A stretch of DNA of 64,000 nucleotides. It comes from an uncultured Bacteroidales bacterium. Lineage in GTDB: Bacteria; Bacteroidota; Bacteroidia; Bacteroidales; Paludibacteraceae. The translations under genes were made by a program, and so were the position numbers. The notes under the pieces are model-generated. The model was given only the letters and a program-made list of their open reading frames with translations. It did not search any database and was not told where the DNA came from. Positions 47,771-62,975 of the stretch are shown one piece after another; position 1 is the first letter of the stretch; each line of letters starts with the position of its first letter. The stretch covers positions 1 to 64,000 of the forward strand of contig ONEZ01000005.1 in the NCBI GenBank assembly GCA_900316995.1, given 5' to 3'.

Positions 47771-50260
47771 TTAAGGTATTGTGTATTCTATTGTGTAGCC
47801 TCGTGTTGCAAGGCGGTCTAAAGTTGTCTGAGGGATCTCTCCTTGACGGTCTTGATGCACATATATTGTCATAGTGCCATTCCGTGCGTAACCAAGTCTG
47901 TTAAGCATAATATCAAGTGTCTCAGTCGTGATGCCAGGGAAGGCGAAGAAGATGTTATCTGCGGCATTCACATTAGGCTCCCACATATAGGGGAACTCTA
48001 TTACTTCAATGTTGTTAGTTAGAAGACTCTCCCAACTGTACTTGAACATATCCTTGTCAAGACGGAATGGGGCACGAGCAAACACCAACCTTGTTAAATC
48101 TTCACTCCTTATAAACGCACCTGAATCAGTTAAATTAGATGTAACAACCAATTCTTTAACACTCCCAAATTGACCTCCGCAACTGCCCACCGAATGTGGT
48201 AAATAGAGTGTTATATTATGATTCTCGTTAAAAAGTCCCATGATATTACTACCTATGGAAGCAATGCTTGTGCGAGAAAGGTCTATAGAACCGATACTTT
48301 CACAATACGAAAAGACCCCGTCGCCCATATCATTCACCGATGCGGGTAATACAACACTCTCCAAGGCACTGCACGCAAAGGCTTCTTGGCCTATACCTGT
48401 AACGCCCTCAGGCAGTTCAATGTGAGTTAGCCCTATATATTTAAATACTCTGTTATATAGAGATGTATTACCTGTGGTTTTCACCACACCATCCTCAAGG
48501 CTCACCGTATAAATACCCGGCTCAAACACCTTGCTGCCAAGGCGGAACTGGCACTGGAGTTCAAGTGTTATGCTGTCATAGTCAGCAAAGTTTATTTTGC
48601 GGCTGCTTCCTCTTTCCAGACTACCACTGTAAGAATAATAGAAATCACCTATTATACCGGTTATTCTTGGAATGCCTCTTGTAGGAATAAGATCCTCTGT
48701 ATAATCCACAACAAATGTAATGGTGTCTCCAAGAGCAAAAGCATAGTCGTTACTATCACAGTGTAGCATTACCGCAGCCACTTCATACCCAGAGAACGTG
48801 CCATCCTTAGTAACGTGGAACGTCTCATCTACAGGGAACTTATAATCTCCTATGCGACCGAATTTAGCCGGCATGTCAACTGTGCGGAAGTTAACTTCAC
48901 GTAAGGACGTGCAACCGCTAAAGGTGCCATCAAGGATGAGTTCCGGTAGATCCTCCACAACCTCTGCATCGCCTTTGTCAAATGTGACACGCTCCAGACT
49001 CTCACAGTATTCAAAGGTATTACTGAGTTGCTCAATACCTGCGGGTAGCGTAACCTCCTGGAGTTTGCTGCAACCTGAAAATGACGAGCCTACTCTTTTA
49101 AGTGTGGACGGCAGGCTTATCTCATCAAGGCCGCTGTAAGCAAACTCACGGCCTTTTTCAAGAGTCTCAATACCCTCCGGCAGCTCCAGCGAGCCTAACT
49201 TATCACAATACGCAAAGGCGTATGCTCCTATCTCACCTATACCCTCAGGTATCACTACAGAGCCAAGCTCTGAGCAGTAGGCGAAAGCACCTGAGCCAAT
49301 ATTAGTTCCTACAGGCAGCGTAACAGCATACAATCCAGTGCGAGCAAAGGCATAGTCACCTATGGCCGTTAGCGAGGACGGCAGTTCTATGTCTCTCAGC
49401 AGGGAGCAGCCGTCAAAGCTGTGGTCCGGTATCTCCTCAAGCGTGGCGGGCAGCGTAACACTCTTAAGGCGTGTACAGAAAGAGAAAACACCGTCACCTA
49501 TCTCCACATCGTCAGAGATCACAACACTGTTAAGTTTTGCACCTGAAAACGCATAGTCGCCAATGGTCTCAACGTCCATGGCGGTTAAGTCAAGGTCACC
49601 AAGGATAGGAGCTGCGTAGAAAGCTTCAGCACCTATGGCAGTTAGCGAGGACGGAATATTTATCTCCACAAGGTTGTTGCAACCCTTGAAAGCACCGTCT
49701 TTAATCTCAAGAAGCTCCTCTGGAAGAGTAACAGCACACAGTTTGACGCAATTAATAAAGGCGTGCCAGCTTACAGTCTCCGTGCCGTCGGGAAGTGACA
49801 ACGTGGTAAGAATTTCCTTGTCTTCCATAAACTCCGTATCGGAGTAGTTCATGGTTCCATCCTCCCAGCCGAACACATATTTAGTGCGGTCAGGAAACTG
49901 GTAACGGATAACATCGGTATCCTCTGTTATATTAACCAGCTCAGAGAGTTTCTTGCCCTGCCAGCTGTTGCGGGTTTTATCGTCATCCACTGCAGGCATA
50001 GCTGCGATGAAGCCTCCCTCATTAGCCTTCTGCACGGCTATGGGCGTGCCGTCCTGATATTTAAAATTGACGGAATGGGAGTTATCCAACACCTCAACAG
50101 TATCCTTAATGTCAGACAATTCGCTATCCAGACTCTCAACATCTGAGATTTGTATTTTTTCACTTTTATGCCAAAAGCTGTCAAATACAGCTGCAAACTG
50201 TGCCGCAGTAGGCTTCATGCCACGCTGAAACCATGATTTTATTGTGTTAATTGAAACCAT
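47771..50260 (-). CDS. Prophage tail fibre with BspA-type leucine-rich repeats
   Basis: 829 residues. Residues 1-45 (INTIKSWFQRGMKPTAAQF) resemble N-termini of other Bacteroidetes phage fibres. Residues about 140-460 and 620-700 are BspA-type repeats of about 23 residues with the pattern aF.gC..L..v.lP..l..Ig. Between them lies a Pro/Gly-rich beta segment. It is the last structural gene after the collar fibre, so a receptor-binding role is likely. The ligand is unknown. Confidence 0.82.
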   Translation of the reverse strand: MVSINTIKSWFQRGMKPTAAQFAAVFDSFWHKSEKIQISDVESLDSELSDIKDTVEVLDNSHSVNFKYQDGTPIAVQKANEGGFIAAMPAVDDDKTRNSWQGKKLSELVNITEDTDVIRYQFPDRTKYVFGWEDGTMNYSDTEFMEDKEILTTLSLPDGTETVSWHAFINCVKLCAVTLPEELLEIKDGAFKGCNNLVEINIPSSLTAIGAEAFYAAPILGDLDLTAMDVETIGDYAFSGAKLNSVVISDDVEIGDGVFSFCTRLKSVTLPATLEEIPDHSFDGCSLLRDIELPSSLTAIGDYAFARTGLYAVTLPVGTNIGSGAFAYCSELGSVVIPEGIGEIGAYAFAYCDKLGSLELPEGIETLEKGREFAYSGLDEISLPSTLKRVGSSFSGCSKLQEVTLPAGIEQLSNTFEYCESLERVTFDKGDAEVVEDLPELILDGTFSGCTSLREVNFRTVDMPAKFGRIGDYKFPVDETFHVTKDGTFSGYEVAAVMLHCDSNDYAFALGDTITFVVDYTEDLIPTRGIPRITGIIGDFYYSYSGSLERGSSRKINFADYDSITLELQCQFRLGSKVFEPGIYTVSLEDGVVKTTGNTSLYNRVFKYIGLTHIELPEGVTGIGQEAFACSALESVVLPASVNDMGDGVFSYCESIGSIDLSRTSIASIGSNIMGLFNENHNITLYLPHSVGSCGGQFGSVKELVVTSNLTDSGAFIRSEDLTRLVFARAPFRLDKDMFKYSWESLLTNNIEVIEFPYMWEPNVNAADNIFFAFPGITTETLDIMLNRLGYARNGTMTIYVHQDRQGEIPQTTLDRLATRGYTIEYTIP

Positions 50261-59380: not shown

Positions 59381-60583
59381 TTATTCCTCCGTATTAGTGG
59401 TTATAAAACCAAGTTCTATATCAATGTATTTGGCATAGCCGTATGGCTTCACCTGAATAACCATATTCAGTTTAGAAGTGGCAAGGATGTTCTGCTTAGG
59501 ATTCACATAGCACTTGCAGCCCTTGTCAGACGTGTCTGAAGGATCTGTGCCAAGTTCTCCTGCCGCTGTCATCTCATTGGCAATGGATGCTATCACCTCA
59601 CTCTCTACGCCTTTAGCGTATGCAGGCGAAACATATCCGTCATCTGTTACAGGCACTTCATCATTCACAAACTCGAGCATCGTGTTGTATGCGATTCTGT
59701 AGGCCTTGTCAATGGTTCTGCGACGGGCGATGCTTCTATAGTCATCACTTGTTGCGGTTGCCAGATTGTCATCCGCTATGAAATAGCCTGACTTTCCGGT
59801 GAATGTCCTGAATGTGATGTAACCTTTGTCATTGACGGTCTCCACATTGGCCACTGACGGGTCATCATCATCAATAAAGAGTGACATAACCGGCAACGCT
59901 CCGTCTCTTACACGGCCTATGTGGCGATGTACGGGACAGGCGGCTATCTGACCGGCCACAAGGGCTACTGCAGCACCTTCACTCTCCTTGACAGTATCGC
60001 CCAGAACCACACCTACACGGTTGTAGTTGAATGTTGTAAGGTCTGCCAGTTCTGTGATATTCTCTTTCGCATAGCCACGTGCGGCGAGCAGAACAAACAA
60101 CGGAGCAAAACGTGAATCCGTGGCCCACTCTGCAAGCTGCTGAGCTTTCTGAGCCGCCACAAGCACATCGCTATCCAGTCCGTCTTCAATATCAGCCTCG
60201 TATGCTGCAGCTGGCTTGTGAGCCACGGCTATAAAGCGGATGCGACCGTTGGCGAGTAGAATGAGCTTCTTGGCGTAAGCGTTCTCCTTATCCACCGCAT
60301 CGGACGGTTTCACACTGTCTGCCACACCCATAAGCCAAAGCTCCGCACCGTCACCAGCTGCGTCATAGAACTCCTTGATATGCTTGTATGCAAATGCGTT
60401 GTTCGTGCTATTCAGACCGAGAGTCGCAAGGTCTGACATCTGATGAATAATATAGCCGTTGCCAAGCACGAATGTGTCCGACACTGCAGCTGCTGTGACT
60501 ATAAGTCCGGCCACGCAGTCAGCAGAGGGAGCAACAGTGCCTAAGGCACCGTTGCTGAAGTTTATCTTTACTCTTGGTAACAT
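59381..60583 (-). CDS. Tail sheath protein (DUF2586-like)
   Basis: 400 residues. It opens LPRVKINFSNGALGTV and has the family end VIQVKPYGYAKYIDIELGF. I match it by memory to DUF2586, the sheath-like protein of Bacteroidetes prophages. Its presence makes this a contractile-tail phage. Confidence 0.8.
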   Translation of the reverse strand: MLPRVKINFSNGALGTVAPSADCVAGLIVTAAAVSDTFVLGNGYIIHQMSDLATLGLNSTNNAFAYKHIKEFYDAAGDGAELWLMGVADSVKPSDAVDKENAYAKKLILLANGRIRFIAVAHKPAAAYEADIEDGLDSDVLVAAQKAQQLAEWATDSRFAPLFVLLAARGYAKENITELADLTTFNYNRVGVVLGDTVKESEGAAVALVAGQIAACPVHRHIGRVRDGALPVMSLFIDDDDPSVANVETVNDKGYITFRTFTGKSGYFIADDNLATATSDDYRSIARRRTIDKAYRIAYNTMLEFVNDEVPVTDDGYVSPAYAKGVESEVIASIANEMTAAGELGTDPSDTSDKGCKCYVNPKQNILATSKLNMVIQVKPYGYAKYIDIELGFITTNTEE

Positions 60584-60609: not shown

Positions 60610-61938
60610 TTACGCTTGTGAGGCCATAGCCTGGCTTACTGTAACCTCCTTGGTTACGGATGTGCCCTCAATGCCTATTGTTACAGTCGCGGTACGCGGA
60701 TCTGTAGCTTCAGCATCGTATGCGTATGCTGTGGCCTGCATCTTCACCTTGTTACCTGTAACGGTAAGGGTCAGCCACTCAGCTTCTGTGGTTGCTGTTA
60801 CACCTGCGCCGTTGCTTGTTGCATATACGCGATTTACTGCTGTGCCAGCAGCGGAGAGGGAAACAGTGTCAGCTCCTGTTATTGTAGGAGTAACCTCTGA
60901 ATACACATCAGATACAATGGCACCGATGGCCTCATTTTTAAGAGGCAGGCAGATGAAGTAATGACGTAGGTTGTAACGCCACTCCTGAGTCTGTGTGTCT
61001 GGCTCGTCTACGTATGCCTTTGTCTCACCTGTAGCCTTCATCATACGTGGAGCGTAGAATGCAACGGAGGCATTGCGGTCACCACTGCCGGCTGTCTGCC
61101 CGAAGGTCTTCTTTGTCAGGTTACTTACAGTATAGAGAGGAGAATCCACAAACTCGTAGATTTCAAATCCGTACATATTAGCTATCTCACCTGTGGTTGT
61201 GTTGTTGTAACGCTGGGCGAATGTCTTGTCCTGGATAAGTAGGTCGTTTACATGCTCTGGACAAAGCACAAGAATACGTCCTGCTGTAGGAACTTTCATC
61301 TTGTCAAACTTCTCCTTCAGGGCTATAATATCATCAACAACCATACGTCTGCGGGTTCCGTCTGCAGCACCAGTGGTTAGCAATACAGGTGTATTTGTGG
61401 TGTTGCCAGAAGGGGCGAGTGCATGTAATGCCTTGGAGTATTTAGTCTCATCAACCTTGTCACGATGGCGCTCAATCACACTGCCAATCTTATCATAGCT
61501 CAGACCTCTTGCCTCGTCATCAGTAATTTTTGTGGCTTTTGTCTGATACTTGTCCAATCCTATAGCCTTATCTGCGTCATCAAGTGTTTCAACACCCAAT
61601 GGGTATGTGGTGTTATTGATAAGCACTGTTGGATCTCCACCCAAATCTACAAACTGTATAGTGTTATTCTTTGCGACCTGTGAGTCAAATGAACGTATTT
61701 TGTTCAACCATCCAATGCTCTTTAGCGAGTTGCGGAAAGCTTTTATGGTTTCACCTGTCCAGATTTCAGTATAGAGACCTGCTCTCAGACCCTCAATCCC
61801 TAAAAATGGGGACGCCACCGCTACGGCGTTGAGCGTTACCGCACCAATCCAAGGTGCCATTCCTACCATAGCGGAAAGAGTTCCGCCAACAAGGCAGTTT
61901 ACAACAACTGCCAATAAAAGAACAATAAACTTTTTCAT
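60610..61938 (-). CDS. Major capsid protein with C-terminal BACON-like domain
   Basis: 442 residues from the ATG at 61938. The first 23 are a hydrophobic signal-peptide-like segment (MKKFIVLLLAVVVNCLV). A HK97-like shell protein covers about 45-340 (YTEIWTGETIKAFR, NNTTYPLGVETLDD, LDKYQTKATKITDDEARGLSYDK). Residues about 350-442 form a BACON-like Ig domain: ATSNGAGVTATTEAEWLTL and the strand EVTVSQ at the end. Confidence 0.85.
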   Translation of the reverse strand: MKKFIVLLLAVVVNCLVGGTLSAMVGMAPWIGAVTLNAVAVASPFLGIEGLRAGLYTEIWTGETIKAFRNSLKSIGWLNKIRSFDSQVAKNNTIQFVDLGGDPTVLINNTTYPLGVETLDDADKAIGLDKYQTKATKITDDEARGLSYDKIGSVIERHRDKVDETKYSKALHALAPSGNTTNTPVLLTTGAADGTRRRMVVDDIIALKEKFDKMKVPTAGRILVLCPEHVNDLLIQDKTFAQRYNNTTTGEIANMYGFEIYEFVDSPLYTVSNLTKKTFGQTAGSGDRNASVAFYAPRMMKATGETKAYVDEPDTQTQEWRYNLRHYFICLPLKNEAIGAIVSDVYSEVTPTITGADTVSLSAAGTAVNRVYATSNGAGVTATTEAEWLTLTVTGNKVKMQATAYAYDAEATDPRTATVTIGIEGTSVTKEVTVSQAMASQA

Positions 61939-61957
61939 GTTGTGTAATTTTTTATGG

Positions 61958-62926
61958 TTAATCTTTTGGTAAATCAATACCATACTCAGCCTTGTAAAGG
62001 CGCTTGTAGGTGTCAATATCATTCTCTCTCATTAAGGCAACCTGGTCAGCCGGAACCTCTGACAGTTTCTTGTACTCTGTAGCTCCGTTTGCGGATGCCG
62101 GGTTAATCACGTCTGAGGGTCTTACCGCTCCGCCCATAAGAGACAAGGTTTCCTTAAGCTGAGCAAGTCCAATCTTCTCGCCCATGCTTATGAACATCTG
62201 CTTTTTGTCAGCAGTGATTTTCTGAAGGCGTACAGCCTCATCTACAGCCTCTGTCAAGGCTTTCTTCTGCTGCTCTTCACGCTCTTTCTTCAGTTGCACG
62301 GCTTGTGCCGCCTGACCTTGCAGGGCTTCAATTTTTGCAAGAACCTCGTTCTCGGTGGCCGTCTCAGGCAGGCCGAGTTTAATACAAATCGCTTTCATGT
62401 TGAATGTGTTTAACTGTTGTTTAATAGGGTTTATAATATCGTTTAATACGCTATCGTTAATGTTGTCTGCCAGGCACAGCATCTTACCGGAGTGACGCAG
62501 AGCCAACGCTTCATCATTCGCTCCTATATCCACCACGCTCACCTCCACAAGCTTTGACTTGGTTACGGTTTCACGTGTCTGACCAGGTAGAAGTACTGAA
62601 GGGTCTGAACTACGCTCTTTAACATCAAGGCCAGCCGACACCATTTTTAATATACCGGCATCCCATTTGTCCTGGATCTGTTTGGCGAACTCATCTTTTT
62701 CATCAAACACAAGCGTGCCAGTCAGACGGTCGCCGTCAACCTGAATGTCCTTGACAGTGCCTATTGGCAGCACCTCGTTCTTTGTTCCCATATACGGACG
62801 GTTGTGCATCCAGAGCAGTATGGGATTACGTTGGTATTGACGTATGTCAATACCTGATGTCAGAACTCTGAAACCATAGCTGTTCAGGCCTGACGTGCTT
62901 ATTACAACCTTTCTTTCTTTGCTCAT
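61958..62926 (-). CDS. Prohead protease with C-terminal scaffold
   Basis: 322 residues from the ATG at 62926, chosen because the ATG at 62944 overlaps the promoter at 62944-62951. Residues 1-150 resemble phage prohead serine proteases (LWMHNRPYMG with a possible catalytic His, MVSAGLD, VEVSVVDIGANDEAL). Residues 177-322 are helical and charged like a scaffold. An internal ATG at 62398 could make the scaffold alone, as in lambda Nu3 or Mu Z. Confidence 0.82.
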   Translation of the reverse strand: MSKERKVVISTSGLNSYGFRVLTSGIDIRQYQRNPILLWMHNRPYMGTKNEVLPIGTVKDIQVDGDRLTGTLVFDEKDEFAKQIQDKWDAGILKMVSAGLDVKERSSDPSVLLPGQTRETVTKSKLVEVSVVDIGANDEALALRHSGKMLCLADNINDSVLNDIINPIKQQLNTFNMKAICIKLGLPETATENEVLAKIEALQGQAAQAVQLKKEREEQQKKALTEAVDEAVRLQKITADKKQMFISMGEKIGLAQLKETLSLMGGAVRPSDVINPASANGATEYKKLSEVPADQVALMRENDIDTYKRLYKAEYGIDLPKD

Positions 62927-62943
62927 TTCTCTGTTTGTTTTCA

Positions 62944-62975
62944 CAAATGTAAAGCATTGAAAAACGCATTACAAA
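62944..62975 (-). promoter_or_regulatory. Leftward promoter for capsid and tail genes
   Basis: On the minus strand: TTTG at 62975-62972, 20 bp, TACATTTG at 62951-62944. It precedes the ATG at 62926 by 17 bp. Confidence 0.7.

Follow-up and report, generated by a model that had tools for sequence, protein, structure and literature searches.

A BACON-type domain at the C-terminus of a Bacteroidales-phage major capsid protein and its exchange between capsids

An Ig-like (Big_2-like) domain within a phage capsid protein is already known from phi29, where it is described as sitting above the shell (PMC5701804), and De Jonge and colleagues (PMC6949934) suggested that BACON ORFs located near head genes may be capsid decorations. 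Regarding BACON on the major capsid protein itself, it is already known from the GenBank annotation of hankyphage-type phages: the major capsid protein of PV107408.1 is annotated with "contains BACON domain", and in four PQ5712xx records the hankyphage-type capsid protein goes by the name "BACON domain-containing protein". Beside these annotations, we found no paper in the open-licence literature that reports a major capsid protein with a fused BACON domain. Neither of two hankyphage papers uses the word BACON in its main text, and one of the two suggests mucus adhesion via a C-type lectin; the strain studied in the hankyphage paper is jmh43. Repeated loss, gain and exchange of such a domain between unrelated capsids found no description in the open-licence papers either. 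With capsid BACON itself already annotated, it is the clear record of modular exchange that is the unusual and interesting part of the locus described here.

The capsid gene and its surroundings

The window, i.e., the whole stretch of 64,000 nucleotides that was analysed, contains a capsid gene surrounded by other phage genes within a bacterial assembly of 2.15 Mb. The following features, all on the minus strand, are relevant here.

59381 to 60583 (-): contractile tail sheath (DUF2586), encoded downstream of the capsid (Pfam 2.1e-62; phrog_907 tail sheath 3.3e-44)
60610 to 61938 (-): major capsid protein gene, 442 aa (phrog_267 "major head protein", match spanning residues 49-395, E 4.8e-39; HK97 fold by AlphaFold/Foldseek; start ATG shared by homologues)
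60625 to 60891 (-): C-terminal BACON-type Ig-like domain, residues ~350-438 (Pfam below threshold; sibling, profile and reciprocal matches; domain model and Foldseek)
60628 to 60798 (-): stretch matched by Pfam BACON PF13004, residues 381-437 (Pfam; same place in the whole-genome search, 21.1 bits)
60910 to 61794 (-): HK97-fold core, residues ~49-343 (homologue comparison, AlphaFold model)
61795 to 61938 (-): hydrophobic, signal-peptide-like N-terminal ~48 residues (length and hydropathy in homologues)
61958 to 62944 (-): prohead protease (Peptidase_S78), encoded upstream of the capsid (Pfam score 25.1 bits vs a cut-off of 21; phrog_11321 1.2e-90)

The open frame extends from 60610 to 62022 (-), and the ATG at 61938, which is the start of the homologues, gives the 442-aa protein; residue 350 lies at 60891, and 60610-60890 thus holds the last ~93 residues and the stop codon. 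The prophage is that of a contractile-tailed, apparently temperate phage, and its host is probably a gut Bacteroidales bacterium. Among named sequences, the closest relatives are found in Paludibacteraceae MAGs, three of which were obtained from horse faeces, and this places the window's genome probably in the Bacteroidales. Downstream of a tail fibre gene, an 829-aa BspA-type leucine-rich-repeat protein is encoded at 47771-50260 (-) (LRR_5, 1.5e-92), possibly a lysogenic conversion or receptor-binding protein; of the eight bacterial BACON proteins treated below, two also contain LRR_5.

For comparison, 103 capsid loci (labelled here with L-numbers) were collected, of which 97 are complete at the 3' end, the six incomplete ones being dropped; removal of duplicates left 82 distinct proteins, the window's included. 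Sequence match, fold and the adjoining prohead protease place the window's protein among the HK97-fold major capsid proteins (phrog_267). In phmmer it also matches the "Major capsid protein" 9jwb (E 2.9e-4), by its title a cyanophage capsid. The full-length AlphaFold model, of modest confidence (pLDDT 79.4, pTM 0.60), matches HK97-fold capsid proteins in Foldseek, led by a mycobacteriophage protein and phi29 capsid chains over 356-440 columns including gaps, with low TM-scores. The protease, which has weaker matches to head-protease families as well in the PHROG search, is matched upstream of the capsid gene in 96 of the 97 complete homologues, the exception being L075, with just 161 bases before the match. 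At the N-terminus, judged simply by length, 76 of the 82 distinct homologues possess at least 45 aa ahead of the WTG motif, and in 75 of these 76 the 19-residue hydropathy mean reaches at least 1.6 in the stretch before the motif. These ~48 residues are possibly removed by the prohead protease; for capsid proteins of P. gingivalis phages, PMC10367356 mentions signal peptides that are likely cleaved by the prohead protease.

Identity of the C-terminal domain

The preliminary description had claimed that a BACON-like domain ends the capsid protein, and this observation is confirmed: residues ~350-438 form a separate, BACON-type Ig-like domain, beyond chance. The Pfam search that it had proposed as a check did match PF13004 but under the curated cut-off of 25 bits, which is the curators' cut-off and not a biological feature (20.2 bits, E 5.9e-4, on a 103-aa piece; 18.2 bits, E 0.0025, on the whole capsid protein); BACON_2 (PF19190) reached 15.9 bits on the domain, its cut-off being 25 as well. 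Such weak scores alone prove little, because in genome searches at E<=1 the same Pfam BACON model also matches seven of the 14 control genomes, one of them above the cut-off, and the identity is carried by other lines.

Among these, 12 of 14 homologous C-terminal tails, the window's included, match BACON at E<=1 (best 1.4e-6). Three of the seven related phage-protein domains scanned pass the curated cut-off (L138, 28.3 bits; L184, 26.1 bits; L128, 30.6 bits), the domain of L138 being 61% identical to the window's; L178, L181, L140 and L144 fall under it in the same scan. Moreover, a profile built from 29 tails gave as its first matches to PDB sequences 8va4 (GH16, 5.9e-6) and 3zmr (BoGH5A, 0.0019), and, at a threshold of E<=1e-4, found matches in 106 of the 393 genomes belonging to the window's order. 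In the reciprocal direction, all eight bacterial proteins scanned among the profile matches are Pfam BACON proteins (PF13004, 92.8-205.1 bits). Modelled in isolation, the domain is a separate beta-sandwich (pLDDT 94.6) whose best PDB fold matches in Foldseek are both chains of 3zmr (E 1.4e-4, TMq 0.67), which we take to be BoGH5A with the BACON domain at its N-terminus. The Ig-like domain of the lambda tail tube, 2l04, is another fold match, and a viral structure library returned mixed Ig-like matches; among the best 50, a single one is named as a decoration protein and none as a major capsid protein. When the phages collection was searched with the window's domain alone, or with the tandem region of L181, no match was obtained.

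Regarding other origins of the domain, a common capsid decoration such as Big_2, which the preliminary description had named as the outcome that would contradict it, did not appear: Big_2 is absent from the matches of the window's domain and was found in a single one of the 14 tails (E 0.02), so that this identity was rejected. Addition of the domain by a programmed frameshift was likewise rejected, since it is encoded in the same frame as the capsid protein with no intervening stop or frameshift; in agreement with the earlier placement of the domain on each subunit, every subunit should therefore carry it. Nor does the prophage hold a second BACON gene as far as the window goes, only the capsid domain matching the tail profile at E<=0.1 within it; the other Pfam BACON matches of this genome are located on other contigs.

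Distribution and exchange of the domain

A C-terminal tail of at least 60 aa is present in 33 of the 97 homologues complete at the 3' end, corresponding to 31 of the 82 distinct proteins, and 30 of these 31 tails are BACON-like by the profile, 29 of the tails it recovered having gone into its own construction. The remaining homologues end at most 16 residues after the core match, the domain-less relatives stopping a few residues past the core (..AIVSD). The single tail of another kind belongs to L090:666-2000, a capsid homologue prolonged at its C-terminus by ~92 aa in which the BACON tail profile finds no match; L090 was left out of the tree count. On a quick tree of the cores, with SH-aLRT support only and no bootstraps, presence and absence of the domain require at least 11 changes, eight of which are forced by well supported branches. 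Presence is nonetheless clustered on the tree, shuffling giving a mean of 24.5 changes vs the 11 found.

Sister pairs that differ in the presence of the domain (L004/L027, L003/L031 and L018/L057) illustrate these changes. In the first, the gap between capsid and sheath genes is 199 bp in L004, which lacks the domain, vs 203 bp in L027, which carries it, and a replacement decoration gene between capsid and sheath was rejected on this basis for close relatives; the sheath could be located in 63 of the 97 loci, and distant relatives, carriers and non-carriers of the domain alike, show a gap of 1-2 kb. The domain is thus an optional accessory module, dispensable for building the shell, because close relatives lack it without any visible replacement gene at this place. 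In a census of the order, a capsid match was found in 45 of 393 genomes and the domain in 3 of the 30 loci listed, the window's included, while a domain search of the same order's genomes gave an additional carrier, L141. Two of the loci, L109 and L037, have an identical printed C-terminal tail and may represent the same genome.

The domain is exchanged between phages as a cassette. Between L013 and L065, which by their contig names come from different metagenomes, DNA identity is 96.3% in the BACON stretch vs 61.3% in the core, with 51.5% for the sequence upstream and 54.9% for that downstream, an assembly chimera being possible for any single pair; between L062 and L063, dS is 0.526 in the core vs 0.012 in the C-terminal tail, several of the dS values overall being near or above saturation. 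Other comparisons set limits to the claim of exchange. Across 465 pairs (L057, with its amidase part, and L090 included), tail identity exceeds core identity by more than 8 points in 40 pairs, and in 120 pairs cores above 55% identity go with tails below 35%. Divergence in the other direction is seen within L001/L026, where the tail is more diverged than the core (85.4 vs 96.1% DNA identity). In L015/L070, the tail is 99.1% and the upstream DNA 99.0% identical, the core 87.3%, and judging from these sequences it may be the core that moved.

Carriers of the domain extend beyond this capsid family. An alignment scan with the window's subfamily, recognized by its RTYATSNGA motif, confirmed 20 loci from 36 pattern matches, the other 16 being unconfirmed and 13 of the 20 lying on contigs already seen; its patterns favour the window's subfamily and give little information on more distant BACON domains. 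Thirteen of the 20 loci belong to this capsid family, three to a distant phrog_267 branch and three to hankyphage-type capsids (phrog_11320 and phrog_1623), and one is a protein without family match, located directly after a head maturation protease. Among the hankyphage-type carriers, the core of L140 is 71.7% identical to the annotated major capsid protein of Bacteroides phage jmh72_hp, a protein for which the tail profile gives 47.3 bits and the core profile -2.0. We consider it somewhat more probable than not that the RTYATSNGA-type subfamily is a cassette that recombination moves onto the C-termini of several unrelated Bacteroidales-phage capsid families, amounting to a natural form of phage display that draws on a shared stock of exchangeable surface modules.

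The domain forms the end of the protein in 19 of the 20 scan loci, the exception being L171, on the contig of L057, where amidase-like sequence follows. At L057:2031-3758, the capsid-BACON protein continues in frame into this kind of sequence (phrog_822), which may reflect either a genuine fusion or a faulty assembly. The hankyphage-type capsid protein at L181:1771-3270 has two tandem BACON domains (scored by the tail profile at 34 and 114 bits). Near a tape-measure-like gene, L144:1501-2226 (-) encodes a 242-aa protein with a BACON-like domain at its end, which recalls the Ig-like domain of the lambda tail tube.

Probable outward display, possible roles and comparison with known systems

The C-terminal tail is under purifying selection, with dN/dS of 0.08-0.28 in pairs with at least 15 changes, and hence the domain is used. 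It probably faces the outside of the capsid, as suggested by the phi29-like match of the full-length model, modest as its confidence is, by the acidity of the tails and by phage K1F, in which the C-terminal end of the frameshifted (minor) capsid protein serves as the fusion site for displayed proteins, according to PMC13370021. Indeed, 28 of 29 tails are net acidic and one is neutral (L057 and L090 left out), with a median of -4.1 per 100 aa vs -0.7 for the cores, which are themselves mostly acidic (72 of 82). That the C-terminus instead points inward, touching DNA or scaffold, is very improbable in view of the same three observations.

Regarding function, the preliminary description had suggested that the domain attaches virions to gut mucus or host glycans. 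This is plausible, but it was over-read from the name, which is insufficient to establish carbohydrate binding because the BACON domain of BoGH5A bound none of the substrates tested, in the account given by PMC9853417, with a similar statement in PMC6949934. A single common ligand is moreover unlikely, because the tails of other groups share just 16-32% identity with the window's. On adhesion and its ligand we therefore put forward a hypothesis, to which we give somewhat better than even chances: the BACON module, present on every capsid copy, would be an optional, exchangeable outer decoration whose most likely job is a weak, many-fold adhesion of the virion to gut glycans. Under this hypothesis, the module, which passes as a cassette from phage to phage and even to unrelated capsid proteins, would sit outside the shell on each capsid subunit of a contractile-tailed phage; through many weak contacts the virion would stick to gut surfaces bearing glycans or glycoproteins, be it mucus or the host bacterium's glycan coat, and so be held near its hosts. 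Binding to the bacterial surface may be a further role. A T=7 shell has about 415 copies of its subunit, the T number being linked to genome size, and the contigs of several relatives measure 36-42 kb. If displayed, hundreds of copies of the domain per head would thus give strong avidity to a weak binder.

Two other roles have to be weighed against adhesion. As capsid cement, the Ig-like domain would reach over neighbouring subunits and stabilize the expanded shell. Stabilizing capsid Ig-like domains have been described or proposed for phi29 (Big_2-like) and for N4 gp17, following PMC5701804 and PMC11768535, and purifying selection would suit such a role, but the domain is repeatedly lost and gained with no gene taking its place before the sheath in close relatives. 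Furthermore, nearly identical domains sit on cores only 61% alike in DNA, and related ones on capsids that show no sequence similarity, leaving little room for a specific, co-evolved interface; we thus regard cement as unlikely. Alternatively, a domain devoid of ligand could serve as a spacer or shield, masking or extending the capsid surface, for instance against immune recognition, which would fit both the non-binding BoGH5A domain, described as a linker in PMC9853417 and PMC6949934, and the variable, exchanged tails, which would also suit antigenic variation. Against this reading, and as a precedent for adhesion, K1F displaying a single-BACON protein on its minor capsid protein was taken up by epithelial cells more than the wild type, uptake being higher in mucus-rich lines, as reported in PMC13370021, though the protein displayed differs from the window's domain; a mere spacer or shield appears quite unlikely. 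The natural pairs with and without the domain, together with carriers such as the hankyphage, would make the retention of phages in gut mucus by capsid Ig-like domains directly testable.

Among known systems, crAss-like and other gut phages likewise have phage-borne BACON domains, some of them near head genes, according to PMC6949934, but as separate ORFs and, in some lineages, as tandem repeats near tail genes, whereas the window's domain is fused to the capsid subunit. With phi29 gp8, the window's protein shares an HK97 core and an Ig-like domain on every subunit, in line with the Foldseek match of the full model. The Ig-like domain of gp8 is also C-terminal; it is, however, Big_2-like rather than BACON and belongs to a Bacillus phage with a prolate head. 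T4 Hoc and other Ig-like head decorations similarly place Ig-like domains on the head, and mucus adhesion has been shown or proposed for them (BAM model). Hoc is a separate, added protein with fewer copies than the shell protein, while the window's domain is part of the capsid subunit. The closest likeness in make-up, a major capsid protein with a C-terminal BACON domain, is offered by the hankyphage type, comprising Bacteroides phage p00, presumably the hankyphage itself, jmh72_hp and their relatives, in which the terminase genes are also divergent from the protease-capsid pair, as in the window. The two differ in the gene that follows the capsid, an amidase in jmh72_hp vs the tail sheath in the window, and in the capsid core, that of the hankyphage type having no detectable similarity to the window's by the core profile.
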